Shown here one piece after another: positions 1,985-53,850 of a DNA stretch of 64,000 nucleotides. The stretch comes from Hoylesella buccalis ATCC 35310. GTDB taxonomy: Bacteria; Bacteroidota; Bacteroidia; Bacteroidales; Bacteroidaceae. The position numbers were made by a program, and so were the translations under genes. Location: NCBI RefSeq assembly GCF_025151385.1, contig NZ_CP102287.1, positions 1,116,001-1,180,000 of the forward strand, given 5' to 3'. Every line of letters begins with the position of its first letter. Position 1 is the first letter of the stretch. A model generated the notes under the pieces. It worked only from the letters and a program-made list of their open reading frames with translations. It searched no databases and was not told where the DNA came from.

Positions 1985-2240
1985 TAAATGATTTTTGAAC
2001 TAAAAACGCCAACAAAAAGTAATGTGTTTGGAGCTAAAATCCCTTCTATTAGATGCCAATTGAGAGGAAAAAGCATGTAAGTTGAAGGGCAAAAGCATGA
2101 TGATTGAGAGGCAAAAGCATATCAATTGAGCGGCAAAAGCATGATAATTGGCGATTTGTACGGTGTGAATGTGCCACAAATTGATTATTTGAAGGTTTAT
2201 ATGAGCTATTTCTCAATTTTATTTTGTCAAAGAAAAAGAA
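1985..2240 (+). repeat. intergenic 22-bp phased array, family copy A
   Basis: Four tandem 22-bp units at 2062-2083, 2084-2105, 2106-2127 and 2128-2149, each carrying the core CAAAAGCAT or AAAAAGCAT and ending in TT. A weak ATTTGT/ACAAAT inverted repeat follows, then GAAGG and the tail TTGTCAAAGAAAAAG (about 2225-2239). The same modules recur in five other intergenic regions of this window. I see no credible gene between ftsX and the lipoprotein gene at 2664; the small ORFs here run through the repeats. Confidence 0.75.
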
Positions 2241-2518
2241 TGCATTTAACAAATAAAAGATTTATTAACAAAAGTGAGTGCCGTGGTCAGTTGTGCTTCC
2301 ACACATTGTGGTTCATGGCTGGTTTTTGCATCAAGTTTGTTGTGAATACATTGGTTTTAGACAACAAACAACCTTTCTTTAATAAAAGAGCCATGTTTAT
2401 GCCAGCAGATAGGTCTACAATGGTTTTATCACTTTGCACCAATCATGAACGTTGCTGATTAACAACTTGCGAGGCATCGAATGGTTGCTTGGTTACGTTC
2501 TTCATCGATACAAACAAG

Positions 2519-2645
2519 AAATGCACATCAGTTATCTTTTTCTCCAAACTTGCAATAAAGAGAGGATAGAGATAAATGATGTGCATTTTAATGAAGGATT
2601 ACTGCTTGTCTGCATTGTCATCCTTCACTTTATCATCAGTAATCA
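2519..2645. other. structured intergenic region with three nested/overlapping inverted repeats
   Basis: Perfect arms ATGCACATCA (2521-2530) and TGATGTGCAT (2577-2586), with further complementarity inside (TTATCT against AGATAA). These are followed by TGAAGGAT (2592-2599) with ATCCTTCA (2620-2627), and GATTACTG (2597-2604) with CAGTAATC (2637-2644). The last two hairpins are mutually exclusive because their left arms overlap. The region lies just beyond the 3' end of the SusC/D operon and may act as its terminator or 3' RNA structure. No -7 box was found for an independent RNA. Confidence 0.5.
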
Positions 2646-2663
2646 ACTGTTTGCTGTGCTTTG

Positions 2664-3713
2664 CTATTCAGTGATTTTTACCAGATAAGGATAGAAAAGA
2701 TCAAGGGCACTACCCGCCAAGTTTGCACTCTTGGGTGGAGTTGTTTTTTTCTTGAATGCGCCAATAACCATTGCTTGCATTTCCTCACCATTGATGATTG
2801 CGGTCAGCGGTGCCGTAGTTCCTTCTTTCTCTGAATAAGAGAAGGGAGCCAAAGAAACAGCCTTGCTGTTGCTTACGGTCCAATATTTCTCAGACTCATA
2901 ATAGGTATACAAGTATAAACTTTGCATTTCACCAAGATACTGGCAAGAAGGTATTGATAATGTCGCAGTTTCTGAATCGAAATCCACATTCAGTTTCTCA
3001 GTAAACAAGCCCGGGAACTTCATGTATCCCTTTGTAATTTTAACGTTGACCGCACCCTTTTGTGTCTTATTTGCATCCTTATAGAACACCAGATGATACA
3101 TACCAACAATATCCTTATCAAAATCACACTGCGTGATTTTAATAGAGTCTACGATGGTTGAACCAGCTTGATACTTGATGTAGCCCTGCCGCATGTGTCC
3201 TGTGTCGTTCTTCGTGAGGTCTATAGACACCTCTCCGTCTTTCAACGAACAGGTAATCCAATCTGCCATACTGGTGAGCTTAACGTCCACATTATGTTTC
3301 AGTGCGAGGCTGAATGAGCGTTTAGCATCATTGAAAGCCATGGCATTGCCTCCCTCCATGGCGAAGATGATGCCTGTCTGCTGCACGGTTACCTTTGTAA
3401 AATCGTCACCCGAATAAATCTTCAGAACCGATGAGCGACCTAAGGCTCCAGCGTTTTCCTCCACCTTGACGGTCACCACATCGCCACTGACAGTTGCCGT
3501 ACACCATGGGTGCTCCGACTCTACTTTCGTGATTCCATGAGGAGCCACTACCTTGACATGCCCAGTAGACGGAGCTGCCTGGAACAACACCGAGCAACTG
3601 TCTACCCGAATAGTAGATTCCTTTGCATAAGGGTTGTCCACTTCGTCCCTGCTACAGGCCACGAAGCCTATAAGAAGAAAGAAGACTCCTAATATTCCAT
3701 GTATTCTTTTCAT
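2664..3713 (-). CDS. BACON-domain surface lipoprotein, last gene of the SusC/D operon
   Basis: A 349-residue lipoprotein: signal peptide with lipobox GFVACS (Cys ~20), then two BACON-like segments. The first spans ~35-112 and contains VTVKVEENAG and TVQQTG; the second spans ~115-195 and ends ITQCDF. BACON domains are all-beta modules common in Bacteroidetes surface glycan- or protein-handling lipoproteins. The C-terminal ~150 residues are beta-rich and unassigned. It follows the DUF4302 gene by 12 bp and is the distal gene of the operon that starts at 10946. Its likely role is ligand capture at the outer surface; the ligand is not evident. Confidence 0.7.
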   Translation of the reverse strand: MKRIHGILGVFFLLIGFVACSRDEVDNPYAKESTIRVDSCSVLFQAAPSTGHVKVVAPHGITKVESEHPWCTATVSGDVVTVKVEENAGALGRSSVLKIYSGDDFTKVTVQQTGIIFAMEGGNAMAFNDAKRSFSLALKHNVDVKLTSMADWITCSLKDGEVSIDLTKNDTGHMRQGYIKYQAGSTIVDSIKITQCDFDKDIVGMYHLVFYKDANKTQKGAVNVKITKGYMKFPGLFTEKLNVDFDSETATLSIPSCQYLGEMQSLYLYTYYESEKYWTVSNSKAVSLAPFSYSEKEGTTAPLTAIINGEEMQAMVIGAFKKKTTPPKSANLAGSALDLFYPYLVKITE

Positions 3714-3725
3714 ACGTTTTCTCCT

Positions 3726-5060
3726 TTACTGTTTAATCATTTTTGTTACATGCGCAATTTGATGACTCAGTCTCGTTGTCCCTACAAGATACTTGGAGCC
3801 TTTGTATTTGCCAGCACTTCCGCCTGACGGTTTCAATGTCCACATGATGAACGAGTCAATGACATAATTAGTCAACCCGTTGTTCACCCATGTATAGACA
3901 GGATGCGCCTCATCACCATTCCATGATGTCTTCATGCCGGCGTCGGTGTTCCATGTCAGGGTTCCACCAGCATCCAATGCCCATGCACACATGAAAACGA
4001 TGTTTCCACCTTCCTCGCCTACAGGTTGTGAGTTCCAGAATAGCGTACCAGTGGCCTTGTTGTAAATAAGTACAACAGGGGTTTCGGGTGAATTGGCAAA
4101 GAAATTGGTCATGTAGTAGCAACCCTTTTCCTTGTTAGGCGTGAGTTTGACTGTCAGCTTTTTAGTTTTGTCGTATACCAACTGGTAGGTGCCCTCATAT
4201 TCACTGAACTTGCGGAAACCTTCCGGAAGCACCCCTTGCAGCGTAAAGGCTTTTCCACCCTCGCCCTCACTCGTCAGTGTACCCGCCTCATAGTCGAACG
4301 CTAACTCCGAGAGCTCGACACCGTTCACCGTGATAGGCTGATAGAAGCGAATACCCTTGTTGGTGTATACAAATGCTACTTCCATTTCCTCAGACGCTTT
4401 GTTCGTGGTATCTGGATTGACATAAAATTGGTTATTATTCAAATCAAACTCTACCCCAACTTTCTTACCGCCAATGCTGCCACCATAGGTTCCAAAGATG
4501 AAATCGGACTGTACGGCAATCACGCCCTTGACATATTCCTCGGCCGGCATGGTGAGGCGGCGCAAGTAGCAAGTGTTACCCGAACGTGCGCCATGAAGTT
4601 TGATAACATCAACGCCCACGCTATCAATCAGGTACTCAATGTCACCTCCATAGGCCTGATAGCGGTCACTGGTTCCTTCGGCCAAGATGTGAAACAATTT
4701 GTTGCCTGTGTCAAAGATAATGCCGGGGCCACCCTCACTGGTCATTTTATAATAGGATGTTTCCGAAACGGCCGGATTGCCACTCATCTCGCCCCGTATG
4801 GTTGCCTGCAGGCTGTCAAATTTTACCGTGTAGACAAAGCCACCATTCTCCTGGTCCTTGTCCCTGAGCCCTGGATAAACCTCAAACACCCATCCATGCT
4901 CCGATTTCATCAGTGCTTGTCGCGTTGAATTCAACAAATTGTTGACGCGTTTGGATGATGGGACATCAAAATATTCGTCCTGTTCCGGATTGCAGGCTAC
5001 TACCGCCAACAATGCGGGAAGCAAGAACAGCAGATATGCGAAATATTTATTTTTTTTCAT
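3726..5060 (-). CDS. DUF4302 lipoprotein
   Basis: A 444-residue lipoprotein with signal peptide and lipobox VVACN (Cys ~23), followed by SSKRVNNLLNSTRQALM and HGWVFEVYPG, the N-terminal hallmark of DUF4302 proteins. These occur almost only in Bacteroidetes operons with SusC/SusD pairs and zinc metallohydrolase lipoproteins. The rest is predicted mostly beta. Function is unknown; surface ligand binding is an inference from context. It is 15 bp downstream of the metallohydrolase gene and 12 bp upstream of the BACON lipoprotein, so it is clearly co-transcribed. Confidence 0.78.
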   Translation of the reverse strand: MKKNKYFAYLLFLLPALLAVVACNPEQDEYFDVPSSKRVNNLLNSTRQALMKSEHGWVFEVYPGLRDKDQENGGFVYTVKFDSLQATIRGEMSGNPAVSETSYYKMTSEGGPGIIFDTGNKLFHILAEGTSDRYQAYGGDIEYLIDSVGVDVIKLHGARSGNTCYLRRLTMPAEEYVKGVIAVQSDFIFGTYGGSIGGKKVGVEFDLNNNQFYVNPDTTNKASEEMEVAFVYTNKGIRFYQPITVNGVELSELAFDYEAGTLTSEGEGGKAFTLQGVLPEGFRKFSEYEGTYQLVYDKTKKLTVKLTPNKEKGCYYMTNFFANSPETPVVLIYNKATGTLFWNSQPVGEEGGNIVFMCAWALDAGGTLTWNTDAGMKTSWNGDEAHPVYTWVNNGLTNYVIDSFIMWTLKPSGGSAGKYKGSKYLVGTTRLSHQIAHVTKMIKQ

Positions 5061-5075
5061 AATAGTCTCCTCTCG

Positions 5076-5984
5076 TTATTTTACTGTCAAATCCAACAAG
5101 TCGACCTTTCCGTCAACAACTTCAGCCTCGCGCCTGAGTACGATCTTTCGCAACTCATCCATATCGATTCCCCATGCCTTTTCCATATAGTCTTTCACGA
5201 TGGAGAGTTTCGAAGCAATCAGTCCAGAACCTTCTTCGCCTGCCTTTTTCATCAATGCGTCCCATTGCTCGGCGGTATTGGTAACATAAATTGAAACCAT
5301 TTCGGCAAAGTCCTCACCATGAGAATGCTGCGCATAGGAAGAAATGAAGCCATGCTCCAGGCAATAATTACTTCCATTGTACGGAGGATCACTCCACTCG
5401 CCTGCCACATAACCTGTGGAGGTGATCAGCTGGTAGTCGGCTGGATAATCTTTTGTCTGGTTAAGAATATGAGTGAACTCATGGTAGACGGTCTTCAGAT
5501 AATAATGATTCAGCGAAGACACACTTCCAAGGTTCTCGTTTAAATGATTCACACCTGCCAGGAAAACCTTCTTGCCTCCCTCGGCAGTACCTAGTACAAA
5601 CGTGCCGTTGTTCTTGAACTCCCAGTTCCCAACCAGATAAATTTGCTTGGGAAAGTTACTGCGCGTGAAGTTGATACCGGCCGCCTCGTCAAAGGCTTCA
5701 AGCACGGCGTACTTGATGACGTGAGCCAACTTCACCGACTGCTCATAGTTGGCTGGAATCAGATAGTAGTCATGGTCTGACTCAATATCCTGAAAGCGAT
5801 ATTTCAAATCAATGTTGTAGGTATTGATAAAATTAGCTTTCAGCCAATAGTCAAACTCCGTGTAGTCAACGTCGTCGACGGTGATGATGCTCTCGTCGCT
5901 TAGTTCATCTTCCGAACACGACGTGAAAGCGGTCACACCTAACAACAACGCCAGACTGTATATTGATAATTTCTTCACATTCAT
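5076..5984 (-). CDS. substrate import-associated zinc metallohydrolase lipoprotein
   Basis: A 302-residue lipoprotein (lipobox FTSCS, Cys 23). It carries a zincin motif HEFTH at residues 168-172 inside YLKTVYHEFTHILNQ, where two His bind zinc and the Glu is catalytic. DFAEMVSIYVTN downstream could supply the third ligand. This matches the Bacteroidetes family of metallohydrolase lipoproteins encoded beside SusC/SusD importers. Such an enzyme would trim a peptide or other substrate at the cell surface before import. The gene lies 17 bp after SusD and 15 bp before the DUF4302 gene. Confidence 0.82.
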   Translation of the reverse strand: MNVKKLSIYSLALLLGVTAFTSCSEDELSDESIITVDDVDYTEFDYWLKANFINTYNIDLKYRFQDIESDHDYYLIPANYEQSVKLAHVIKYAVLEAFDEAAGINFTRSNFPKQIYLVGNWEFKNNGTFVLGTAEGGKKVFLAGVNHLNENLGSVSSLNHYYLKTVYHEFTHILNQTKDYPADYQLITSTGYVAGEWSDPPYNGSNYCLEHGFISSYAQHSHGEDFAEMVSIYVTNTAEQWDALMKKAGEEGSGLIASKLSIVKDYMEKAWGIDMDELRKIVLRREAEVVDGKVDLLDLTVK

Positions 5985-6001
5985 AATGATACTCTTGAAA
6001 A

Positions 6002-7606
6002 TTATTTTTTAGTTGTATTTCTCGGATTAGGCTTAACACCTGCATCAATTACCTTGGATGGCAACTGGAGTGCCCGCCTGTCATCGTCCTTAGAAAGGAA
6101 ATCCGTCTTCTCTTCGGGCTCTCCTGCCATAGATATCTTACGGCGCGGATATTCTATACCGTAGCGCTTGATGTCGAACCAACGGATGCCTTGATGAATG
6201 GTTTCCATCCGACGGAAGCCAAGCACACACTGCAACATCGCTTCCTGCGTGCTGCCTTCTTTATCGATTGTGAACGCAGGATGCAAATGCTTCTTGATGG
6301 TCGAGGCTAATGGACTTTCCTTGTCATCATAACTATACTTCGCCTTATTATAGAATTCCTCGATCTCTTTGGGCGTGAGCACCATCTTCGACTTAGTGGC
6401 ATTCTGCATCCACAGGGTCAGATCGGCTGCCGCCTGGTCAAACTTTTTAGTCATAATGTAGGCCTCAGCACGATTCAACAGACACTCGTCTGTGGTGAGC
6501 AAAGTAAATATAGACTTGTTGTAACCTATACCTGCCACAGGGTCAGTATACTCAAATAGATGAGGTATGCGCCAGTAAATCACGTAACTATAGCCTGTTC
6601 CTGGATAGGTGTGAGGAGCATCGTAGAGCCTCGTGCTGCCACCCCAGATGTTTTGAGCTCCGCCAAGTTCATTGGTAGAGATATAGGTGCCATGCGTGTA
6701 TTTCTTCCAAGTCCTGTATGGCCCGAACGCTAACCCACCTTTTGAAAATCCCGTAGCCAACAAAAGATTGCAATTCAGTTCTGATGAAACATAATGTTGT
6801 GAACGCACATCAAATTTAGAGGGCAGCTTAGCCGTATTAGCCCAGTCTCTGAGTAACGACGCAGGATTACCTCCTAAGCACTTGTTGGCATACTCAATGG
6901 CCTTGTCCCATTTTTCATAATACAGATAGAAACGTGCAGCAAACGCATAAGCGGCACCCACATTAAAATGATACTTAGGCACACTGAGATGACTGTCACC
7001 AACCAGCGGAAGGGCTTTCTGGATATCCGCATCTATCGACTTGTACACATCGGCAACCGTTCCCCTATCGGGGACCTGGCCAATCAGCGAGCCTGTTTCA
7101 TACATCAGTGGGATACCCAAATCCTTGTCGGACGTGGCTGCGTTGTAGTTTTTGCAGAAGATGTTCACCAGCATGAAATGTCCGTATGCTCGAACCATCA
7201 ATGCCTCGCCCATGCTCTCACGCAACAAAGGGGTGGTTGGACCTCCCAGCTTGTCAATAGCATCGAGTGCGTTGTTGGCCGTGGTAATAGCGTTGTAGGC
7301 ATTCTGCCAATAGTTCTCGGGCGACTCATTGTTGTTCTCCGTGGGATCTTTCCAAGCATAGAACTCACCAACGAATCGGTCTGTATAGGTATTGGGATAC
7401 TCGTCGACATTGTCAGACATCAGTTCTGTGAAGATCTGATAGGTGTGGGTAGGATAGGCCGAAACGAGCAGGTCCTTTACCTTCACCTCATCGTCCACAA
7501 TAGTACGGTTGTCGGGCATCACGTCCAAAAAATTATCGCATCCTGTGAGTACTGCAACACCCAAAGCCAGGATAAATGTATGGTATATAGATCTCATTGT
7601 TCTCAT
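6002..7606 (-). CDS. SusD/RagB-family surface nutrient-binding lipoprotein
   Basis: A 534-residue lipoprotein with lipobox LTGCDNFLDVMPDNR, the standard N-terminus of SusD proteins. TPR-like helices follow (EALMVRAYGHFMLVNIF; YAFAARFYLYYEKWDKAIEYANK), with a C-terminal SusD region (CVLGFRRMETIHQGIRWFDIKRYG). SusD lids the paired SusC channel and binds the substrate on the cell surface. A second in-frame Met at residue 4 could also serve as start. It is located 14 bp downstream of SusC. No polysaccharide-degrading enzyme is nearby, and the operon carries a metallohydrolase instead, which hints at a peptide-like substrate as for RagAB of Porphyromonas gingivalis. Confidence 0.92.
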   Translation of the reverse strand: MRTMRSIYHTFILALGVAVLTGCDNFLDVMPDNRTIVDDEVKVKDLLVSAYPTHTYQIFTELMSDNVDEYPNTYTDRFVGEFYAWKDPTENNNESPENYWQNAYNAITTANNALDAIDKLGGPTTPLLRESMGEALMVRAYGHFMLVNIFCKNYNAATSDKDLGIPLMYETGSLIGQVPDRGTVADVYKSIDADIQKALPLVGDSHLSVPKYHFNVGAAYAFAARFYLYYEKWDKAIEYANKCLGGNPASLLRDWANTAKLPSKFDVRSQHYVSSELNCNLLLATGFSKGGLAFGPYRTWKKYTHGTYISTNELGGAQNIWGGSTRLYDAPHTYPGTGYSYVIYWRIPHLFEYTDPVAGIGYNKSIFTLLTTDECLLNRAEAYIMTKKFDQAAADLTLWMQNATKSKMVLTPKEIEEFYNKAKYSYDDKESPLASTIKKHLHPAFTIDKEGSTQEAMLQCVLGFRRMETIHQGIRWFDIKRYGIEYPRRKISMAGEPEEKTDFLSKDDDRRALQLPSKVIDAGVKPNPRNTTKK

Positions 7607-7620
7607 ATCGATAAATGTTT

Positions 7621-10600
7621 TTAAATTCCTAATCGCAAGGTAAGTGTAAACTGCTTCGGAACGGGAACGGCAACACCACCCGTATTGAAGAACTCGGGAT
7701 CTTGTCCGTTGAGTTTCTTGTCAGCATAAATCAAGAAGAGGTTCGTAGCCTGCAACTTCAGGGAAAGGTTGTTCAAACCGATAGCACCGTATAGGGACTT
7801 TGGGAAATCGTATCCCAAAGATATCTCTTTCATGCGGATAAAGTCGCCCTTGGCGATACGCGCCGTAGAGAAATTATAGGAGTTGTAGGCAATACGCAGG
7901 TCGGTGTCGTTCCAGTTCTGCCGTTGTGTGGCAATCGCTGGAATGTCTGTTGTTTTCTCCTCTCCTGCCGCATCCATCGGTTCTTGAACTCTTTTGGGGT
8001 TGAAGTCAGGTCATTGTAATATGCCTTGAACACAGGATCCAGCCTTACCACGTTTCCAAAGGAATAGGTAATGAATACATTCATGCTCAGTCCCTTATAT
8101 CGGAATATGTTTCCCAACGAGCCAGTGGTGGTGGGATCTGTAGGGCCTTCGTATTTCAAGAAGTCAAGCTGCTCTTTCTTACTGTCCTGGAAATAGATGC
8201 CCGACACGGTGGTTGTACCGTCCCAATTGGTGAACGTGGGAAGTCCCTCGCCATTCAATCCTGCAAATGGAACGGAGAACAGAGCCCTGACGGGATAGCC
8301 CTCGCGTGCGAAACCGCCTCCACTCACCAGGTCGATAACACGCGTAGACGTTTCCAAATCAGTCACCTCGTTATGTACGTATGAGTAGATGAGACTGGTG
8401 GTCCACGAGAAGTCTTTCGTCTTGATGTTCGTGGTGCTCAAGCTTATCTCCAGACCATTTGATTCCATCGAGGCGATATTTCCATATTTACGTACAAAGC
8501 CATCGGTACCTGCCGTAGTGGCAAGCCCAATCAAGTCGTAATTGTCACGCGAATACACGTCGACTGCAAAATTGATTCGGTTTGACAAGAAGCCTGCCTC
8601 CAAGCCAAAGTTCCATTCCTTCTTCTTCTCATAAGTTAGATTGGGGTTGGCCGCATCGTCTATATACAGTCCCGACTCGCTGTCCTTGGTGATGTATCTC
8701 CACGGTGTGAAACTGCCTATGACGGCCTGTGCATTGGTTACCGAGGGGCGGTCTGCAGTCAGTGAATAAGATGCTTTCAAAGTGAGGTGGCTTAATGCCG
8801 GCCTAAGTTTCTCAAACCAAGGTTCTTCGTGTGCGTTCCAAGCCCCAGAGATATTCCATGTTGGGAGCCATCGTGCCTGTCTTGACATACCCAGTCCGTT
8901 GGTACCTTCGTATCGATAGGTTCCATTCAGCGTATAGCGTCCTTTCCATGAATAGGTGGCGTTTGCAAAGAAAGCGGCACTGCGCACATGCGTGTTACGC
9001 AGCGAATAGTAGTCGGCGCCCTCTTCCTTGCTCTTCTTGAATACCTGATAGGCATAGTTTGGGATTTCACCCATTTGGTACTGCATGCCCCATCCGCGGA
9101 ACCATGTCTTATGGCGGTCATAGCTATTGGTTTCCAATCCCCCATACAGGTTCACGATGTGATCCTCGGCAAAGACATTGTTGTAGGCCGCCGTGGCACG
9201 GAAGTCGAATCCAAACATACGGTTGTCGGTGCGTTCCATAATACCACCATAAGGCATAACCGTCACAGGCAGGGCCGTTAGATTCTCGGGATCTCTGTAC
9301 AAGAACGGATTCTTGTCACGGATGGTCGATGTACCCATGGCCCGGTAAGCCATGGCTTGGTTCGAGGCATCAAGTATGTTGTGCTCGTTTGAGGTCGCAT
9401 CGTACTTCACCGCTCCCAGCACTGTGAGTTCAACAGGTGTGATGGGCTTATAGGTCAAACGGCCTTGAACACGGAAGTTGATGACATTCAGATCCAGATA
9501 ATTGTTCTCCAACTCATGCATGATGTTGAACGGTGCGTAGTTGCGGGTATAGAATGTATTTGCATCCAATGCGCGCGAAGTGTTCAGTGCGTACGAGTAG
9601 GGGTTGATATCGAAGTCACGCTTCACCTCACCCATCACGGCATCCACCGACGAACTGAGGGTTCCTGGTGCGCGCTGCTTACGATAGGAGGCATTGGCGA
9701 TCAAATTGAAGTTCACCTTTCTCAAAAGGTTGAACGACGAATTGACATTCGCCGTATAGCGTTGCACCTTGCTCTGCTCTGTCCAGCCCGGGTCAAACAT
9801 GGCACTCACCGAGGCATACGTCTGCGATTTGTCCGTTCCCGAAGAAATGCTAACCGAATGGTTGTGCATGATATTGGTTGAGAACAGCTGGGCAAACCAG
9901 TCGGTGTTGCGATACTCTGCCTCACGAAGATATTCGGCAATGGCTTTCGGAGTGTTCTCCAAAGCAAACTGCCCTGTCCGCACGTCATACTGACTCAGCA
10001 TCTGGTACATTTTTCCATAGACACCCGAGTCGGAGGCGTTGGACGTTCCTGCATAAGGAAGATATCCCTTGAGGAACAACTCCTGGTATACGGCCATCTG
10101 GTCCTGCGAGTTCATGATGTTGAACTCGGCATACGAGGGTACCAGCCTCATGGTGTACTCGCCACTATAATTAATGTGTGCCTGCCCTGCTTTTCCTTTC
10201 TTGGTGGTAACGACAATCACGCCAGCCATGGCGCGTGCACCATAAATAGAGGTGGCCGAACCGTCTTTCAAGATTTGGAAACTCTCGATGTCATCGGCGT
10301 TCAGTCCGGCGATGGCCGAAGAAATTAGCGTATTGGCATCACCTGAGGAGAGCTGATCTGCACTGACATTCTCTACATCCTCCATGATGACACCATCCAC
10401 CACCCATAGTGGCTTGCTGCTACCATATATAGAGGTGGCACCACGTACACGAATCTTGGGCGCGGTACCAAAGGTTCCCGTCACGTTTTGTACGGAGACA
10501 CCTGCCGCGCGACCCTCTAACGATCGACTGATATCAGCCATACCGTCTATCTTCGCATCCGCGGCATTAACTTTAGCGGAGGCACCGGTAAAGAGGCGTT

Positions 10601-10946
10601 TGTCTATCTTCTGCATACCAGTCACCACTACTTCGTCTACTTTCTGCGCGTCCGACTGCAACACGATCTTCATGTTTTGCGTACCGCGCAAGGTCTGCGT
10701 CTTCATTCCTATGTACGTCACCGTAATCATAGGATTGCTCTTCGTTGAAGTAAGCGAAAACTTACCGTCAACATTCGTCACCACGCCTGTCTTTGTCCCA
10801 ACAACCATCACAGATGCTCCAATCACCGGTTGGCCATCATCCGCAGAGGTTACGGTACCATTGATTAGCGTCTGAGCATTTGCCACTCCTATACAGAGAA
10901 ACAAATCCACAAGCAAAATCGTTAATTTTTGTTTCATATTTTTCAA
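7621..10946 (-). pseudogene. SusC/RagA-family TonB-dependent outer-membrane transporter, frameshifted near the C-terminus
   Basis: The main frame (10946 to 7830) encodes a signal peptide (cleavage after VANAQ), a carboxypeptidase-regulatory-like domain (~27-105), the SusC signature DEVVVTGMQKID, a plug domain with ILKDGSATSIYGARAM, and most of the beta-barrel. At 7968-7980 the correct reading jumps frame. One frame reads KNRWM then RQERRKQQ and terminates at 7830. The other continues DAAGEEKTTDIPA to a normal barrel end (PKQFTLTLRLGI) at 7621. The total length, 3326 bp, is one base short of a multiple of three, so one base (or four, from a short ATGG repeat) is missing. As written, the last ~115 residues of the barrel are lost. 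It is the first gene of the operon. Confidence 0.88.
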
Positions 10947-11075
10947 GTTAAGATTACTCCCAATTTAATCATTATTGAGTATTTCATCCTGTCTCACGAC
11001 ATGAAATTATGAATTAAAAGTAAAAACAGTACAAATAATAACAAAAAAGAGTTATAGTCACTAAAACATCTTGGA

Positions 11076-11106
11076 CAAATATAAGTTAAAAAAACTATAA
11101 ACGCAA
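11076..11106 (-). promoter_or_regulatory. promoter of the SusC/D operon
   Basis: Minus strand: -7 box TATATTTG at 11076-11083, a perfect TAnnTTTG, with a TTGC -33 element at 11103-11106 about 20 bp upstream. The transcription start would be near 11069, giving a leader of ~120 nt. The 11000-11470 stretch is AT-rich and otherwise shows no gene. No ECF anti-sigma or hybrid two-component regulator gene adjoins the operon. Confidence 0.6.
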
Positions 11107-11469
11107 GTTGATTTAAAAGTATAATATCGTTTTTAACTTTCTTTTACAATTAAACCTCCTTTTACCACTTTTTATCGGTAAAAATCAAATGATATTGCTT
11201 GCGCTCAAACGTACTGTAAGCCCATAGCTCACAGATTGCTTCCTAAGAATCAACATATCTTTTTTCTTGTCGAATATGGTAAATCATTTTCTACAAGAAA
11301 AATAGCTTTGCTGCTTTAATAAACAAAACTGTACATTTGTTGCTTGATAAACATCACAACCCAAACAAATGATTATCCACAAAACGACCAGACCCTGCTG
11401 ATTTATAATTTTCTAGAACCGGATTTTGTCAAGAAAACCAACCGTTTTTTAACACTTCCCGAACGCTTC

Positions 11470-11814
11470 TTCTAGAAAAAGAATAGGGTGATTCAGATGC
11501 AGTGACGAGAGTTTTGGCGGGGTGTTCATGCACATTGAAGGCCAATCTCCATGCTTTTTCAACACTTCTTATGCACTTTGGGCTAAAAATAACCATGACA
11601 TTGAGTGATTAAAGTTATGGGTTTGACGGGCAAAAGCAATGCTATTGGAAGGTAAAAGCATAGCTATTGAAAGTAAGAAGCCTTGACAAAAGAGATAACA
11701 AACTGAACACAAACATCTTACAAACACGCGAAATCCTGGCCGTATTTGCGAGCAAAGGGGCATGAGGCTGCGAATACGCGAGTTATGAAGAAGGCTTTGT
11801 CAAGAAAATTTCGC
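11470..11814 (+). repeat. intergenic 22-bp phased array and hairpin, family copy B
   Basis: Begins with CTAGAAAAAGAATAGG (about 11473). Two clear 22-bp units follow at 11625-11646 and 11647-11668 (GGCAAAAGCA and GGTAAAAGCAT cores), then an inverted repeat CGTATT (11741-11746) / AATACG (11773-11778). It ends in TTGTCAAGAAAATT (11797-11810). It lies between divergent genes (SusC operon and the B6 operon). The order matches copies D and E. Confidence 0.72.
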
Positions 11815-11871
11815 ATTGCTCGCTGGGTTACGACTTGCACAAAACAACCTTTTCATTGTCATAATGAGAAC

Positions 11872-21599: not shown

Positions 21600-21955
21600 A
21601 TACCATCTTACCCCAACCAAGATGTCAAAAACGGGTTGCCTGGGATGTTGAAAAATCTTGCAAACCCGCTCAAATACTCGCGTATTTGCAAGCAACTGCC
21701 TCGGTGGTCGAAAATACGCGAATTTTGTATGTGCCTCACCCACAGCAACTTCCTGCTTAATTCCCTATGAACGTCACCTCAAAAGCAATCATATTGCACG
21801 GCAAGAGCATTGAGTTTGACCTGCAACGAGTATGCTTTTCAGGGTCAAAAAGCATGCTATAGAAGACCAAAGTCAATGCTTTTGGCCAAACAAGGGCATC
21901 AGAAAGTGATTTTTGAAGCTAAAATTAGCTGGATTTTTTCTAGAATGCAAGTTTT
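21600..21955 (-). repeat. intergenic 22-bp phased array and hairpin, family copy C (inverted order)
   Basis: Six contiguous 22-bp units at 21774-21905 (units start at 21774, 21796, 21818, 21840, 21862, 21884), with cores CAAAAGCAA, CAAGAGCAT, CAACGAGTAT, CAAAAAGCATG, CAAAGTCAATG and CAAGGGCAT. Left of the array is a perfect 10-bp inverted repeat TCGCGTATTT (21678-21687) / AAATACGCGA (21712-21721). To the right is TTTTTTCTAGAA (about 21936-21947). Module order is reversed relative to copies A, B, D and E. The 21425-21997 stretch has no gene. Confidence 0.75.
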
Positions 21956-21997
21956 GAAATGACCAAAAATATTGACAAAACCGCAGTTCTTTCACTC

Positions 21998-32333: not shown

Positions 32334-32599
32334 CAAAACAATCTTATTTATCCATATAAATTTACAAGAAAAGTCGTTCTCACCTTAATATCCTATGCTT
32401 ATACGGCAACAAATGTAGCCTATTTTGAATCAGTCATAAGAATAATGTAGGGACGCACGACCAGTCTGTCAGCAAATCCAATAGCCACCTGCTATATTTT
32501 TTTCATTGTCAGTCAACCTCGCAACAATCAATTGTCATACTGAATGCAACACCATTATTCATCAAAGCAAAATGTTATGAACCACATCACGACCTTGTA

Positions 32600-32998
32600 A
32601 ATGTTGAAAATTTTACCCGAAAAACGGGCCTAAAACAGCTCATCAATGTTGATCATCTAGAAAAAAATGATAGGCACGCAGGGTGCAAATCGATTGATTG
32701 GTGGGTCCGAAAACTCTATTTTTACCAATAAAGTGATGGTTTTATGCACACAAATGCATCTTATTGGCGGCCAATAGGCATGGGTTAATGCTGCAATAGC
32801 ATGCGAATTACAACCTTAAAGCATTGCTTTTGGCTTAAAAATGCATGAAAAACAGTGGGCCAGCAGTAAAAAGATTTATAACTTATTGTATTATAATTAC
32901 TTATAAACCATTCGCATGCTAACCGTATTTGCAAAGACTGAAAAGGTTGTTGGGAAATACGCCAAATATGAAGAGGTTTGTTGTCAAGAAAATTCATC
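32600..32998 (+). repeat. intergenic 22-bp phased array and hairpin, family copy D
   Basis: Starts with a leader block containing CTAGAAAAAAATGATAGGC (about 32653-32672), which also occurs in copy E. GCAT cores follow at 32756, 32778, 32799, 32821 and 32843 (spacings 22, 21, 22, 22). Then come an inverted repeat CGTATTT (32924-32930) / AAATACG (32955-32961), CCAAATATGAAGAGG (32963-32977) and the tail TTGTCAAGAAAATTCATC (32981-32998). It fills most of the 820-bp gap between the endonuclease and the transporter genes. No ORF in it looks real. Confidence 0.78.
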
Positions 32999-45219: not shown

Positions 45220-45220
45220 C

Positions 45221-45487
45221 ATGACAAACAATACAGATAATAACGCTCCCGCACAATATAAGTCGCTCGATGAAATCAGGATACGCAAAGACCAGATTTT
45301 GAAAAGCATCAGGAAGGATGACGAAGGCATGCGGCATCTTTGGAACAGCATGTTCAACAAGCCGGCCACACTGACATCAAAGCTGCCCTCGAAACGTATA
45401 TCGGGGTTGATGAACACTGGGACTGGCATCTTCGACGGCGTGCTGTTGGCCTGGAAATTGTACAGAAAATTTAAGAAAAGAAGATAA
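45221..45487 (+). CDS. small basic protein of the YtxH/holin-like operon
   Basis: 88 residues with no signal peptide and no TM. KSLDEIRIRKDQILKSIRKD is followed by a basic C-terminus (LLAWKLYRKFKKRR). It occupies the position of YqjK-like proteins in comparable operons. I do not recognise a characterised domain. A strong terminator follows 20 bp after the stop. Confidence 0.75.
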   Translation: MTNNTDNNAPAQYKSLDEIRIRKDQILKSIRKDDEGMRHLWNSMFNKPATLTSKLPSKRISGLMNTGTGIFDGVLLAWKLYRKFKKRR

Positions 45488-45507
45488 TTTTTTTTCAGAA
45501 ACTAAAC

Positions 45508-45539
45508 GATGACAACCTATTGACGGTTGTCATTTTTTT
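45508..45539 (+). terminator. terminator of the YtxH/holin-like operon
   Basis: ATGACAACC (45508-45516) pairs perfectly with GGTTGTCAT (45524-45532), followed by a run of T. Confidence 0.88.
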
Positions 45540-45774
45540 CACACTCTACTACCATTACTATCCAAAAGCATCGACAGAATCTTTATCAATCGTAAGTCTG
45601 GACCTCAACAACAAGTTTCCATTCGTAAACAGAGCTGACGACTATATGACCCATTTTGTTGTTGATTGTTAGCTTACCAGATGAACCTCTCCTGAAAAGG
45701 AACAAGGGAAAACGCACCTTATGACAATGTTAATTCCGATTGAACACTTGACTGCGAGTTGCGATTTTGTTGTG

Positions 45775-46165
45775 TTTATTCAACGATTTTCGCCCCTAAA
45801 ACGGCACCTGTAAACTTTCAAACTAGAAAAAAAACGATAGGCTTGGAGGATGCAAACAAGAGATTTTGGAACGAGAAAAATCGAATTTTATCACAAAAAG
45901 ATAGACTTTACGCGCAAAAAAGCATCACTTTGGCAACCAATCAACATGTTTTTGAGCAGCAAAAGCATGCATATTGCACCCTAAAAGCATTGCTTTTGGT
46001 ATGAAAAGTCTTATCAAATTGGCACGAAACAGCATCATATATTTATAAATACCTGTGTATGAATGATATATAAAAACCGCTCATTTTGGGCGTATTTGTG
46101 ACAAGACGGATGGTTGTTCGCAAATTCGCCAAGCATGAAGAGGTTGGTTGTCAAGAAAATTCATC
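45775..46165 (+). repeat. intergenic 22-bp phased array and hairpin, family copy E
   Basis: Leader block with CTAGAAAAAAAACGATAGG (about 45823-45842), alignable with copy D over ~100 bp. Array cores follow at 45900 (GATA), 45922 (GCAT), 45944 (ACAT), 45965 (GCAT) and 45987 (GCAT), spacings 22, 22, 21, 22. Then comes a hairpin GGCGTATTTG (46089-46098) / CAAATTCGCC (46121-46130), one mismatch, GAAGAGG (46137-46143) and TTGTCAAGAAAATTCATC (46148-46165). The short ORFs crossing this block are spurious. Confidence 0.78.
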
Positions 46166-46342
46166 TGCACTTTTCTCCGAAATCTTATTCATGACGATAC
46201 GGTGAGTGATAAAGTAGAGCTTGCAAAATGGTGTGACTTCTGAATTGGTTTCGGGGTAGTAGGCACTAACAGTTGCTGCTGGAAAGCTGTGTTCATGCTG
46301 CCAACGAGCAAGGTATGTGTCGTAATTTTAATGATTTATGAG

Positions 46343-46406
46343 CAAAAAAAAAGAGTACCGCCGTACTCTCAATCTTATTAACCTTAAATCTAATACTATG
46401 AAAAAC
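46343..46406 (-). ncRNA. candidate small RNA with own promoter and terminator
   Basis: Minus strand: a -7 box TATCTTTG at 46413-46420 and a TTG -33 element (46440-46442) 19 bp upstream predict a start near 46406. About 60 nt later a perfect hairpin (AGAGTAC at 46363-46369, loop, GTACTCT at 46352-46358 as read on the minus strand) is followed by a run of nine T. Between them lies TTCATAGTATTAGATTTAAG. I have an uncertain impression that similar short sequences are common in Bacteroidetes, but this was not checked. It lies ~150 nt downstream of the metallo-hydrolase gene, so it could also serve as its terminator. Confidence 0.6.
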
Positions 46407-46556
46407 ACATTGCAAAGATACAAAATGATATCGTATTTGCAAGATTTGGCCATGAATTTGGACTTTTTATAACTATTTTTAATCGAACTAAAGGTATTTT
46501 TGACAAGAAGACTCAATTTGCCCATAAATTGTTGACGAATGCAAACAACGCACTTT

Positions 46557-48328: not shown

Positions 48329-48338
48329 CCCTACTCTA

Positions 48339-49196: not shown

Positions 49197-49280
49197 ACGA
49201 ACGCTTTTGCTTATAAAATCCTCTCATTTTTTTCTAACATACCCCTTCAAATTCCTATCTATACACGACATTTCTGGACG

Positions 49281-49437
49281 AAGGTGCAGTCTATTTTATG
49301 CAAAGATAGTGCAAGCCGAATCCAAAAGAAGTTTACTTATTTTGGTAAGGTGCAGCCTATTTTATGCAAAAATAGCGCAAACCGAATCCAAAAGAAGTTT
49401 ACTTATTTTGGTAAGGTGCAGCCTATTTTATGCAAAA
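49281..49437 (+). repeat. 66-bp tandem repeat, 2.4 copies, upstream of pheS
   Basis: AAGGTGCAG starts at 49281, 49347 and 49413, an exact 66-bp period. Copies 1 and 2 differ at only a few positions outside a short divergent start. Each contains CCGAATCCAAAAGAAG and TTACTTATTTTGG. The third copy stops after ~24 bp, about 50 bp before the pheS -7 box. The rest of the 49197-49514 gap has no gene. Confidence 0.9.
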
Positions 49438-49484
49438 TTACGACTTAATTTCGATATAAGTCTTCTTTTTAACTTAAAAAATAG

Positions 49485-49492
49485 TACCTTTG
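49485..49492 (+). promoter_or_regulatory. -7 box of pheS
   Basis: TACCTTTG, perfect TAnnTTTG; start near 49499, ~16-nt leader before the ATG at 49515. Confidence 0.6.
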
Positions 49493-49514
49493 CAGTAGGA
49501 AATTATAATAAAGT

Positions 49515-50552
49515 ATGATACTTGATAAAATAGATGAGCTTCTGCATGAAGTAAGCAACCTTTCAGCAAAAAACGCTGAAGAAGTTGAACGGTTGCGCCT
49601 GAAATACCTCAGTAAGAAAGGTGAAATCAATGCTTTGATGGCCGATTTCCGCAACGTGGCCGCTGATGAGAAGAAAACAGTAGGCATGAAAATCAATGAA
49701 TTGAAGCAGATGGCGTTGGACAAAATCAATGCCTTGAAAGAGCAAGTTGAGACTTCCGCCGATGCTTCTGATGACATTGACTTAACTCGTACGCCCTATC
49801 CTATCCGCTTGGGGACACGACATTCGCTGACCATCGTGAAGAATCAAATCTGCGATATCTTCCAACGAATGGGCTTTGTGTTGGCCGATGGCCCAGAGAT
49901 TGATGACGACTTGCACGTTTTTACCAAGCTCAATTTTGCGTCAGATCATCCTGCCCGCGACATGCAAGACACGTTCTTCGTGAGCAAACATCCCAATGAT
50001 GTGACCAAAAACATACTGCTACGCTCACATACATCAGGTGACCAGTCGCACTATATGGAGACCCATCAACCTCCTATCCGCATCATCTGCCCGGGAAGAG
50101 TGTACCGCAACGAGGCTATCTCGGCCCGCGCACACTGCTTCTTCCATCAGGTAGAGGGTCTATATATCGACAAGAACGTGTCGTTTACCGACCTCAAGCA
50201 GGTCTTGTTGACCTTTGCACGTGAGATGTTCGGCCCAGATACCGACATCAGACTGCGTCCCAGCTACTTCCCTTTCACTGAGCCAAGTGCCGAAATGGAT
50301 ATCTCTTGTTTCATCTGTGGTGGTGATGGTTGTGCCTTCTGCAAGCATACTGGTTGGGTAGAGATACTCGGTTGCGGCATGGTTGACCCCAACGTGCTGG
50401 AATCTTGCGGCATTGATAGTAAGGTATACAGTGGTTATGCCTTCGGAATGGGCGTGGAGCGCATCACCAATCTGAAGTATCGTGTGAGCGATTTGCGCAT
50501 GTTCTCAGAGAACGACCTGCGGTTCTTGAAAGAATTCGAGGCCGCCTATTAA
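49515..50552 (+). CDS. pheS: phenylalanine--tRNA ligase alpha subunit
   Basis: Catalytic subunit of the (alpha-beta)2 PheRS. 345 residues: an N-terminal coiled coil (~1-85), then a class II core with HPARDMQDTFFV, the motif 2 region RIICPGRVYRNEAISARAH, the Phe-binding FFHQVEGLYIDKNVSF, and DGCAFCKHTGWVEILGCGMV with motif 3 in GYAFGMGVERI. pheT is not adjacent, as is usual in Bacteroidetes. A strong terminator follows, so the gene is monocistronic. Confidence 0.98.
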   Translation: MILDKIDELLHEVSNLSAKNAEEVERLRLKYLSKKGEINALMADFRNVAADEKKTVGMKINELKQMALDKINALKEQVETSADASDDIDLTRTPYPIRLGTRHSLTIVKNQICDIFQRMGFVLADGPEIDDDLHVFTKLNFASDHPARDMQDTFFVSKHPNDVTKNILLRSHTSGDQSHYMETHQPPIRIICPGRVYRNEAISARAHCFFHQVEGLYIDKNVSFTDLKQVLLTFAREMFGPDTDIRLRPSYFPFTEPSAEMDISCFICGGDGCAFCKHTGWVEILGCGMVDPNVLESCGIDSKVYSGYAFGMGVERITNLKYRVSDLRMFSENDLRFLKEFEAAY

Positions 50553-50610
50553 TGACAGAAGACACAGACAGTAAGCTGATATCGCCTGCCTGTGCCATCA
50601 AATAACTACA

Positions 50611-50641
50611 AAAAGACAGTCCATACGGATTGTCTTTTTTG
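50611..50641 (+). terminator. terminator of pheS
   Basis: AAAAGACAGTCC (50611-50622), loop ATAC, GGATTGTCTTTT (50627-50638), one G-T type mismatch, followed by T. Confidence 0.85.
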
Positions 50642-50698
50642 TGTTTGTGCACGACACTTTACAGCCGAAAGCGTGATACCAAGCCGCCCAGTTCACAC

Positions 50699-51847
50699 CT
50701 ATTGTTCTATTTTCTCATAGTATCTCAACGAACCTAAGGCCGTTGCTTCGGGATGTAACATGATGATGAGATCCCTTAATAATAAGTCGGGACGGAAAGG
50801 AGTCTCCTCAAAATAAGGTTTAACACTGCCATTACACTGATAAATCTGGCCCGTCTTGAAAGCTTTCAATCCATCATATCCATGATATTCGGCCAACAAA
50901 TCCTTCTTCGTCATGAGCCTTTCGCCGTTAAATTTGAATGCCCAAACGTCACTATCTCCAGCCTTTTCCAACACTTCTTCAAACGACAAAGGCAGGCTAC
51001 CGCTATGCTTGTCGTCCGAAAAGGCATAGGTACCATTGGCATCGGCTATCATTTGTCCCATCGTACTCATCCCTCCGGGGCAGTACCACACGCTACCTGT
51101 CTTGCGTTCCGTTAAGATTGAACGCCCAGCGTGCCACGCTTGAGCCGTCGTCTTCAACCCTTGATAAAGACTGTCCACGACATTAAACAGCGAATCGGCA
51201 CGCTTTTCCTGACCGAACAACATGCCATAAAATTTCATCCACTCGGCTCTGCCCAATGGAGAAGTTTCCATATAATCGGCCATCTCTATGATGGGCGTTC
51301 CCAATTGCGCCAACTTTCCATAACCACCGCTGTTCTCAAAAGGTGACAAGAACAACGCCTGCGGCTTCAATTCGATGATTTTTTCTAACTGGGGTACCAT
51401 GCCTTCACCACAATCCACAATCTTTCCCAATCGTACTCGCTCATGAATAGAGGGTATCAGGATGTATTTCAAGTCGGCAACGCCAACAATTTGATCCAAA
51501 CAACCTAAATATTCCAGCAGTTTGCAGTGAGCTGTCGTGAAGACAACGCTGCGCATTAAAGGCGTATAAACCAACGTTCCTTCGGGCAAATGATCCACCC
51601 GAGCCGAATCTTTCCTATCCACCAGCACATAAGTATGCAACGTTTTCCCCTCACGCCACGGGTCAACGAGTGTGACAACCGTAAACAGTTGATGCTTCAC
51701 CACCTTAATATGTTGGGCATACTTGAATGCCAATGGCTCCCCATTGCTCGAACTTGTCGACCCTCTGCCATGCCGGCAACCCGCCAACGAGATGACCGTG
51801 AAGAGGGCAAAAGCTCCAAACCAACTCAAAAAAAACTTATTCTTCAT
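50699..51847 (-). CDS. ABC transporter substrate-binding lipoprotein (siderophore/B12 type)
   Basis: 382 residues from ATG 51847 (MKNKFFLSWFG, lipobox SLAGCRH, Cys ~24). The 52 upstream codons of the open frame are rejected because a -7 box lies at 51896-51903. The body has the periplasmic-binding-protein type III fold of BtuF/FepB: MRSVVFTTAHCKLLEYLGCLDQIVGV (lobe 1), PQLEKIIELKPQALFLSPF, TPIIEMADYMETSPLGRAEWMKFYG, and lobe 2 (SVWYCPGGMSTMGQMIADANG). Likely ligand: ferric siderophore, heme or cobalamin. No permease or ATPase genes adjoin it, so it must pair with components elsewhere. Confidence 0.85.
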   Translation of the reverse strand: MKNKFFLSWFGAFALFTVISLAGCRHGRGSTSSSNGEPLAFKYAQHIKVVKHQLFTVVTLVDPWREGKTLHTYVLVDRKDSARVDHLPEGTLVYTPLMRSVVFTTAHCKLLEYLGCLDQIVGVADLKYILIPSIHERVRLGKIVDCGEGMVPQLEKIIELKPQALFLSPFENSGGYGKLAQLGTPIIEMADYMETSPLGRAEWMKFYGMLFGQEKRADSLFNVVDSLYQGLKTTAQAWHAGRSILTERKTGSVWYCPGGMSTMGQMIADANGTYAFSDDKHSGSLPLSFEEVLEKAGDSDVWAFKFNGERLMTKKDLLAEYHGYDGLKAFKTGQIYQCNGSVKPYFEETPFRPDLLLRDLIIMLHPEATALGSLRYYEKIEQ

Positions 51848-51895
51848 GCCTTTCAGTTCTATACATGGTGCAACATGCCATGCCAAAACACGATA

Positions 51896-51903
51896 CAAAA
51901 ATA
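51896..51903 (-). promoter_or_regulatory. -7 box of the substrate-binding lipoprotein gene
   Basis: Minus strand TATTTTTG, perfect match; start near 51889, ~42-nt leader. Confidence 0.5.
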
Positions 51904-52022
51904 CAAAATTATTAAACAAAAGCAACATTGAAGTGCCACAATTTTGCATCTTCCTACCATTATGTTCGCCTGTCATACGAGAAGGGAAAAGGATGTTTTT
52001 CAACTATTATTATGTCATAATT

Positions 52023-52052
52023 TTTGTTTATTCCAAAAAAATCATAACTTTG
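52023..52052 (+). promoter_or_regulatory. promoter of the DASS symporter gene
   Basis: -33 TTTG (52023-52026), 18 bp, -7 TAACTTTG (52045-52052), a near-ideal Bacteroidetes promoter. Start near 52059, ~28-nt leader before ATG 52087. Confidence 0.65.
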
Positions 52053-52086
52053 CCCAATCTAATTATAACTAAACACTCAATTAACC

Positions 52087-53559
52087 ATGGAAGAAGAAAA
52101 AGAAAACGTCATGAGCGGTCAGCTGAATACCAAGAAGCTGTTTACCTTCTTAGGAATCATAGCCGTGACCGCTATCGTGTGGAACCTACCCATCGACACC
52201 TTTGGCATCGATGGATTGACCGTCATTCAACAGCGAATCATCGCCATTTTTGTGTTCGCCACCCTGTCGTGGATCACCGAAGCCGTGCCTTCGTGGGCCA
52301 CCTCATTAGCCATCATCACCGTGATGTGCTTAACTGTTTCTAACAACAGTCTATCAATGTTCAAGGGCGAAGAGAATGAAGTATTCGGCACCTTGCTCAA
52401 ATCAAAGGATATCATGGCGACCTTTGCCAACCCCGTTATCATCCTGTTCTTGGGCGGATTCATCCTTGCCATAGCAGCGACAAAATCGGGATTGGATGTC
52501 CTTTTGGCCCGTAACCTCATCAAACCGTTCGGACACAAGAGTGAGAATGTACTTTTAGGGTTCCTCCTCATCACCGGCATTTTCTCCATGTTTGTCAGCA
52601 ATACCGCCACGGCAGCCATGATGCTCACCTTCCTCACGCCTGTATTCGCAGCCCTTCCACCCAACGGTAAGGGGCGCATTGCACTGACTATGAGCATCCC
52701 TGTAGCCGCCAACCTTGGCGGTATGGCCACGCCTATCGGCACACCACCGAACGCAATTGCCCTCCAAGCCCTCAACGACCCTGAAGGATTGAACATGGGT
52801 ATCGGCTTTGGTAACTGGATGGCCTTCATGTTTCCATTAGTCATCGTCCTGCTGTTCATTTCGTGGCGCATCATCTTGAAATTCTTCCCCTTTACCCAGA
52901 AGACCATTGAGCTGGAAATCAAAGGGCGCATACATAAAGGATGGCGCATGTGGGTAGTAAGCGGAACCTTCATCCTCACCATTCTTCTCTGGCTCATTCC
53001 GGGCAAGATTACAGGCATGGACTCTAACACCGTGGCCATGGTACCTATGGGTATTTTCGCCATTACGGGCGTCATTACAGGCAAAGATCTGCAAGAAATC
53101 AACTGGAGTGTCATATGGATGGTGGCCGGCGGATTCGCCTTAGGCCTCGGCATGAACGGTTCTGGCTTGGCCGACCGTGCCATCGAGAGCATTCCTTTCA
53201 AGGAATTCAGTCCGGTAATCATACTGATTTTGTCGGGATTGATTTGCTATTTCTTGTCCAACTTCATCTCCAACACCGCAACAGCAGCCTTGTTGGTTCC
53301 AATTTTGAGCGTTGTCTGTGCAGGCATGGGCGACACCCTCAATTCCATTGGCGGCACATCTACGATACTCATCGGTATTGCCATCGCTGCTTCTTCAGCC
53401 ATGTGCTTGCCTATCTCAACGCCACCAAACGCCATCGCCTATTCAACAGGACTGGTCAAGCAGAACGACATGCTCAAGGTGGGCTTGACAGTGGGTATCA
53501 TCAGCATGATATTGGGTTACGCACTCCTGTTCTTTATTGGCGAAACCCATTTGCTGTAG
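52087..53559 (+). CDS. SLC13/DASS-family sodium:dicarboxylate (anion) symporter
   Basis: 490 residues, ~11-12 TM helices, without RCK domains. The two DASS signature repeats are intact: MFVSNTATAAMMLTFL with ATPIGTPPNAIALQAL, and FISNTATAALLVPIL with PISTPPNAIAYSTG. The SNT and P-P-N motifs bind Na+ and the carboxylate substrate in this family. The likely substrate is a C4-dicarboxylate such as succinate or fumarate, which cannot be decided from sequence. It is monocistronic, and a perfect 22-bp inverted repeat 80 bp downstream probably ends its transcript. Confidence 0.92.
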   Translation: MEEEKENVMSGQLNTKKLFTFLGIIAVTAIVWNLPIDTFGIDGLTVIQQRIIAIFVFATLSWITEAVPSWATSLAIITVMCLTVSNNSLSMFKGEENEVFGTLLKSKDIMATFANPVIILFLGGFILAIAATKSGLDVLLARNLIKPFGHKSENVLLGFLLITGIFSMFVSNTATAAMMLTFLTPVFAALPPNGKGRIALTMSIPVAANLGGMATPIGTPPNAIALQALNDPEGLNMGIGFGNWMAFMFPLVIVLLFISWRIILKFFPFTQKTIELEIKGRIHKGWRMWVVSGTFILTILLWLIPGKITGMDSNTVAMVPMGIFAITGVITGKDLQEINWSVIWMVAGGFALGLGMNGSGLADRAIESIPFKEFSPVIILILSGLICYFLSNFISNTATAALLVPILSVVCAGMGDTLNSIGGTSTILIGIAIAASSAMCLPISTPPNAIAYSTGLVKQNDMLKVGLTVGIISMILGYALLFFIGETHLL

Positions 53560-53619
53560 CATAGCGAATGAATCACCATGACCCGTTGTGAGCACCCTAC
53601 TCCAGCGGGATTATGGGTG

Positions 53620-53850
53620 TGAATATTCTTGACAAGCAGCCGCTTCATATTTGGCTTATTTACAAACGACAATCGTTTCGTTGCAAATAAGCCAAATATG
53701 AAGCGGTTTTCAGATGTACATGTGGGTCAATACGTTACGGCTGATTGTCACCACTAAAAAGTTGATTAGCAAATTATTTTGAGCTAAAAGCATTGCTTTA
53801 AGACTGCAATCTACATGCTTTTGCAGGCCAAAGTCCTGTAAATTGACCAT
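53620..53850 (-). repeat. intergenic phased array and long hairpin, family copy F (inverted)
   Basis: Perfect 22-bp arms at 53640-53661 and 53685-53706 (CCGCTTCATATTTGGC... / ...GCCAAATATGAAGCGG) with a 23-bp loop. Read on the minus strand they are followed by TTGTCAAGAATATTCA (53620-53635), the family tail. On the other side two array cores, AAAAGCAT (GCAT at 53790) and ACAT (53813), lie 23 bp apart. The hairpin probably doubles as the DASS gene terminator. This is the last chromosomal landmark before the mobile element. Confidence 0.75.

Follow-up and report, generated by a model that had tools for sequence, protein, structure and literature searches.

The 64,000-bp stretch of Hoylesella buccalis ATCC 35310 analysed here (the window; positions 1116001-1180000 within one 3,307,707-bp contig, NZ_CP102287.1, of the 3.31-Mb genome) carries six copies, A to F, of intergenic repeats built around arrays of 22-bp units, which the initial annotation had taken for one family with a shared, ordered set of modules. 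The modules are indeed present and not at background frequency, since the tail motif TTGTCAAGAAAATT, allowing at most one mismatch, occurs 60 times in the genome and a reversed control 0 times; the copies, however, fall into two families, with B to F belonging to type 1 and A to type 2. Copies D (32595-32998, plus strand; profile match 32632-32997) and E (45765-46165, plus strand; profile match 45798-46164) are full type-1 elements whose phased arrays (model columns 91-222) lie on the plus strand at 32721-32852 and 45887-46018, respectively, and the inverted repeat CGTATTTG/CAAATTCG of copy E occupies 46077-46141 (plus strand; model columns 281-345). Copy B (11424-11815, plus strand; profile match 11460-11810) is divergent and has a TTGTCAAGAAAA motif at both ends, copy C (21650-21982, minus strand; profile match 21668-21961) is shortened, and copy F (53620-53853, minus strand) consists of a tail half, its element being severed at 53843-53853 and the matching head half lying outside the window, 13.5 kb off, at genome positions 1183400-1183545. 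Copy A (1798-2283, minus strand) has a four-unit array at about 2061-2148. Judged by module order it is inverted, so the inverted set comprises A as well as C and F, the two that had been recognised as such.

To search for further copies, we used R1, a sequence-only profile built from 24 type-1 copies, D and E among them (24 of 30 loci were kept in the first alignment; L005, L009, L020, L027, L029 and L030 were left out). In the window R1 matched E, D, F, B and C with E-values of 1.5e-75, 1.2e-66, 1.7e-38, 1.9e-28 and 1.2e-21, and gave a weak, opposite-strand match to copy A (46.3 bits, 1901-2149, minus strand). Scanning the whole genome and its relatives with such a profile, as had been proposed, gave about 75-80 type-1 copies in the genome itself: R1 aligned 75 copies across the 75 own loci searched (a set without copies B and C or the half copy F), and the genome map holds 78 places with B, C and F counted in. 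At E <= 1e-20 there were 80, 76, 74 and 86 matches, which may include opposite-strand echoes, in the relatives G040, G041, G042 (a draft metagenome-assembled genome, MAG) and G043 (H. timonensis); at the copy C locus of H. timonensis the element is in place and has diverged. Of 40 genomes searched, 8 gave R1 matches: the own genome and 7 of its 23 relatives within the genus, against 0 of 16 genomes of other families. Orthologous DNA at about 92-97% identity was found in close relatives, Prevotella sp. BV3P1 and the MAG SUG2085 among them.

The type-1 element is about 400 bp long overall, and 70 of the 75 aligned copies are full length. Their mean identity is 55.8%, and their length, measured over columns fitted to R1, is nearly constant, at 363-369 bp in 56, 350-362 bp in 9 and 382-388 bp in 5, the last being read as carrying one extra unit. 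A TTGT...TTTTTT stretch about 30 bp ahead of the head marks the 5' end (62 copies); the head itself is centred on CTAGAAAAAATCAATAGGC and is followed by an array of dyads spaced at 22 bp, five divergent units plus a half one, all at set positions (model columns 91-222), and not by the variable two to six units first described. After the dyads come a TAA....TTG..TATCA motif, compatible with a pair of overlapping IHF-like sites, then an inverted repeat whose arms are CGTATTTGC/GCAAATACG, and the tail TTGTCAAGAAAATTC. Short open reading frames (ORFs) inside the element aside, all 70 full copies lie between longer called ORFs, which are codirectional in 37 cases, divergent in 23 and convergent in 10, counts for which no background was computed.

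The signal in type 1 appears to be one of DNA and not of RNA folding. The inverted repeat, which had been proposed as a TATTTG/CAAATA hairpin, shows no base-pair covariation, with standard pairs at a frequency of 0.697 against 0.693 expected from independent columns (23 pairs, 70 copies) and 59 both-side cells of standard pairs over the 23 pairs, which is no excess. When mutual information with average product correction was computed over all column pairs, the strongest pairs formed no helix; complementarity between units exceeded expectation in no pair (z -2.2 to 1.5), and Rfam gave no match at gathering score in the copy regions. The absence of pairing covariation in type 1 speaks for a constraint at the DNA level. 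Runs of A/T within the element have an 11-bp period (power 2.78, against 1.10 in shuffles and 1.11 in a flank control), as would be expected for phased bending or binding on one face of the helix. IHF-like sites with at most one mismatch to the consensus share a single position in the element in 17 and in 19 of the 70 copies, and exact matches to that consensus occur in 8 of 70, against 2.0 expected. Just downstream of copy E, at window positions 46342-46408, lies a small RNA of the FopS family (Rfam RF04319, 71.7 bits), the only Rfam match beside a copy.

To ask how the element evolves in place, we compared orthologous loci with G041. The rate set was drawn from 49 loci among the best-scoring listed matches of 76 (the other 27 were not retrieved), and for 44 of the 49 one flank or both identified the locus as best partner to an own copy. 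Own copies were matched by both flanks in 29 cases and by one in 16; rates are given for the 29 pairs, excluding the 16 one-flank copies and the 5 loci without a partner. Across quartiles of paralogue information, taken over columns of the alignment fitted to R1, the substitution rate between orthologues falls from 0.188 through 0.141 and 0.094 to 0.034 (Spearman correlation over columns -0.65), such that columns conserved among paralogues change about fivefold more slowly (3.4% versus 18.8%), and the fall holds in A/T sites (0.165 to 0.027) and in G/C sites (0.226 to 0.048). Overall substitution is alike in the element and its non-coding flank (0.114 versus 0.118), and indels are about threefold rarer in the element (3.25/kb versus 9.48/kb). 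Set against all flank DNA, with coding sequence counted in (3.30/kb), the indel rate does not differ, so this contrast rests on the non-coding flank. A first set of 37 pairs gave a similar gradient (0.185, 0.133, 0.097, 0.039); because its loci had been picked by head motif, they were re-chosen by profile score for the 29-pair set. Spacing was the same within 3 bp in 40 of 54 locus rows, some of which are alternative alignments of one pair and all of which were found by head motif, which biases presence. No empty site was met in the pairs compared, in a search that was not exhaustive, and the one lost own copy examined is a deletion in which the right arm and tail remain. The slow conserved columns, rarer indels and shared loci argue for selection on a vertically inherited element.

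Three further observations concern individual loci. The flanks of L169 are 89-94% identical to H. timonensis (L305, L099), to which the window DNA is mostly 66-81% identical in larger matches, a difference that may reflect transfer at L169. Beside copy L180 the sequences of two relatives, at L086 and L125, exceed that of the own genome by about 200 bp, and the type-1 copy at L199 contains (genome about 1322582-1322720) a short sequence whose long ends are inverted (GGCTGGTTCTATAAATTA...).

Type 2, the family of copy A, is about 470 bp long and has flanks unlike those of type 1 and TTAACA-like ends that may be inverted, and its unit is the same 22-bp unit (10 copies aligned); a DNA search with copy A gave 20 matches of all lengths in the own genome, copy A included. 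A unit that is shared despite different flanks points to a factor acting in trans. An island (window 1795-11369), flanked by copy A at one end and by copy B, on its upstream side, at the other, is present in the MAG G042 and absent from G040 and G041, which carry about 210 bp of other sequence in its place; its proteins include SusD-like, TonB-plug, Peptidase_Mx1, DUF4302 and BACON proteins. Another part of the window, 49282-49436, is repeated elsewhere: sequence with 79-84% similarity to it occurs in L140 and L116, and L123 and L146 share a second such place.

Copy F is interrupted by a mobilizable transposon (MTn; 53854-64000, plus strand) that continues past the window end to about genome position 1183399. 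The junction with copy F holds an 11-bp att core, TTG-N5-CAA (53843-53853, minus strand), and Pfam identifies two tyrosine recombinases in tandem, at 54143-55372 and 55425-56720 on the plus strand, each with Phage_integrase, Phage_int_SAM_5 and Arm-DNA-bind_5 domains. Among the other MTn products are one VapE-like/DUF5906 and one HTH_17 protein; the four proteins in between, including a 140-aa ORF after the second recombinase, have no Pfam match. At the copy F locus of G041 the element is uninterrupted, and in the draft assembly G042 copy D is split by an 18.6-kb insertion of a related element. All five full-length matches to the MTn end in the own genome abut type-1 or type-2 DNA, two adjoining type-1 halves and three adjoining type-2 remnants, and the end has some match in 37 of 150 genomes of the genus, the own genome included. 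We examined the flanks of MTn ends for periodicity in 39 flanks from 19 genomes, three of them own (one of 40 loci was dropped because no match touched its end; the flanks are not independent, with several per genome and L341 and L342 near-identical). Self-match averages 0.398 (lag 22) and 0.365 (lag 44), against at most 0.296 at other lags (8 to 49) and 0.272 in shuffles, and the best lag is 22 or 44 in 24 flanks. The array units beside MTn ends differ by species, for example GTGGAGAACAAATTATCCA in G096 and CAACCTCCGTGGTTCACGATGT in G157. The three own flanks retain about one unit and singly lack the 22/44 period, and some flanks (L336, L344) are plain-looking sequence without an array.

That no described element resembles these repeats, as first stated, was too strong. 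Among the matches listed, comparable repeats were described only in the papers on PINSR (PMC4755523, the only one found under that name) and BrickBuilt (PMC4596501), both cited here from excerpts. PINSR of Prevotella intermedia is a 188-bp intergenic repeat of unknown function, without terminal inverted repeats (TIRs), present in 177 and 184 copies that are mostly common to strains, one of them placed downstream of tnaA; the excerpts make no mention of phasing in its array (PMC4755523). In genome G104 (two contigs, 1,965,935 + 708,235 bp) a tail pattern, allowing at most two mismatches, occurs 201 times against 0 for the control (165 against 2 in G017, 0 in G081 and 1 in G096), and the repeat found there is 187-191 bp long in 47 copies, with four dyads at 22 bp. 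One copy follows, on the downstream side, a gene for a 460-aa member of the Beta_elim_lyase family, the top one of five matches, which we take for tnaA. We take the G104 repeat to be PINSR, having set the two side by side by description and not against a published consensus. R1 matches the G104 repeat at all 19 places checked (of 44 R1 rows, 4 were dropped as opposite-strand rows at the same places and 21 weaker ones were unchecked); the scores are weak (25 bits at best) and on either strand, indicating that the array drives the match.

Type 1 would thus be a relative of PINSR and not PINSR itself. Like type 1, PINSR is intergenic, has many copies, is mostly shared between strains and has no TIRs reported in the excerpts, and the presumed PINSR shares the 22-bp-phased dyads matched by R1; PINSR differs in length (188 versus about 400 bp) and unit sequence (PMC4755523), and the presumed PINSR lacks the type-1 head and inverted repeat and has coupled units 1 and 3, which type 1 does not. 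In the latter repeat, complementarity between the centres of units 1 and 3 reaches 6.00 of 7 positions against 5.37 (45 copies), a value that 0 of 500 shuffles reach; units 1 and 2 show the reverse of this complementarity (L381-L400). The MTnPi1-3 elements of P. intermedia resemble the MTn in copy F, by description and not by protein sequence, in their two tandem tyrosine recombinases and 11-bp att, which is not stated in the excerpts to sit in PINSR arrays (PMC4755523). Elsewhere, G006 carries intergenic arrays of CAAAAGCATAGGTTTTG (L166, L167, L168), spaced at exactly 22 bp in L167 and L168, with no obvious type-1 head or tail.

BrickBuilt, a miniature inverted-repeat transposable element (MITE) of Porphyromonas gingivalis, shares with type 1 an intergenic leader, tandem repeat and tail layout; it occurs in 19 copies, and its 23-nt unit is repeated 1 to 22.8 times in near-identical form between IS5-like TIRs (GAGACCTTTGCA), unlike the five divergent 22-bp units at fixed places in type 1 (PMC4596501, from excerpts). 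As to the suggestion that the repeats are themselves a MITE family, this is unlikely for type 1: we saw no TIR by eye, no empty site was met in the non-exhaustive comparison, and copies are shared by descent. Other known repeats are likewise only partly comparable. REP/BIME and REPIN sequences are, like type 1, dispersed and intergenic, being palindromes used as targets by mobile elements; REPs are short and GC-rich, whereas type 1 is about 400 bp with phased arrays. The BOX elements of pneumococcus also have ordered modules with an internal repeated box, and differ from type 1 in sequence and in the fixed unit number of the latter, a distinction made by description and not by sequence comparison.

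We favour, with moderate confidence, the interpretation that types 1 and 2 form a dispersed, phased DNA platform of architectural function, bound by a putative protein. Each platform carries a row of 16-17-bp dyads two helical turns apart in non-coding DNA, on which dimers of a sequence-specific protein would line up along one face of bent DNA, with an IHF/HU-like bend beside the array helping assembly. The platform would pass vertically at its loci and be maintained by selection, a plausible benefit being local DNA architecture or the insulation of neighbouring genes, and the two-recombinase MTn family may integrate in the spacer between neighbouring dyads, using it as a gene-free safe harbour. 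That the two-turn spacing is selected, as the initial annotation had suggested, is supported by the near-constant length, the slow conserved columns and the 11-bp A/T-run period. More tentatively, and with considerable doubt, we extend this to the genus: each Prevotella species may have a fast-evolving dimeric protein on about 75-200 arrays, and MTns may recognise the nucleoprotein by its 22-bp phase and not by unit sequence, which would explain why the same MTn end lies beside arrays whose units are unrelated from species to species.

Several observations weigh against the platform interpretation. The IHF-like signal is modest, and R1 reaches only 7 of the 23 same-genus relatives. The choice of best-scoring G041 matches favours conserved copies, and 5 of the 49 loci have no own partner and 16 own copies match by one flank only. 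For 15 of the 39 MTn flanks, the three own among them, the best lag is neither 22 nor 44, and the coupling of units 1 and 3 in the presumed PINSR hints that this repeat folds or undergoes inverted-repeat conversion.

The repeat might instead be an ancient selfish element, non-autonomous and multiplied within each lineage, its conserved columns having served the mobilising enzyme with no use to the host. This would account for the high copy number, intergenic position, discrete ends and species-specific repeat families, yet we consider it unlikely: the conserved columns remain slow when orthologues at fixed loci are compared, 44 of the 49 loci in G041 have a partner among the own copies, no empty site was met among the pairs compared, the one lost copy examined is a deletion with a remnant, and type 1 has no visible TIR. 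Recombination is another alternative, in which the arrays are primarily att sites of the two-recombinase MTns or a related recombinase and are kept by that system. The junctions of all five full-length own MTn ends with type-1 or type-2 DNA, the mean 22/44-bp period of flanks in other genomes and the TTG-N5-CAA core fit this possibility, which is nonetheless quite improbable given that most of the 75-80 copies have no MTn and that module rates show constraint on the head, inverted repeat and tail as well, which an insertion point does not need.

The remaining alternatives are weaker still. The long-armed inverted repeat of single copies and the unit 1-3 coupling in the presumed PINSR could indicate a family of structured RNAs, as was initially considered; with no covariation in type 1 and nothing in Rfam reaching the gathering score in the copy regions, this is very unlikely. 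With its tandem 22-bp dyads beside an IHF-like site, the type-1 array resembles iteron origins, so that the arrays might bind a plasmid-type initiator and act as a sink or incompatibility determinant; we give this little credence in view of 75-80 chromosomal copies and the absence of an initiator among the 20 window proteins compared with Pfam (genes beside other copies were not searched). Many copies with phased sites would also suit a regularly spaced or polar site that marks the chromosome or organises the nucleoid, the first idea put forward for these repeats and now largely refuted. The 8-13 kb spacing seen in the window is local only, as gaps between the 78 places average 42 kb with a coefficient of variation of 0.97, as under random placement. 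The spacing map took the origin at dnaA; because dnaA is often far from oriC in Bacteroidetes (PMC4755523, excerpts), the polarity test placed the origin by GC skew of sampled loci, and 37 of 78 places proved co-oriented with the fork (p = 0.73), with distances from that origin fitting a uniform distribution without trend (p = 0.30).

What is known here is thus an interspersed intergenic repeat of an ordinary kind, related to PINSR; what is new is the shared two-turn phasing, the species-specific dyads, the selection visible locus by locus and the MTn ends at the arrays. PINSR thereby joins a wider class with a 22-bp phasing rule, a species-specific dyad and a locus-by-locus sign of selection. 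A likely integration place of a common Prevotella MTn family is suggested, and the role of dispersed intergenic repeats becomes directly testable through the protein that would bind the dyad.

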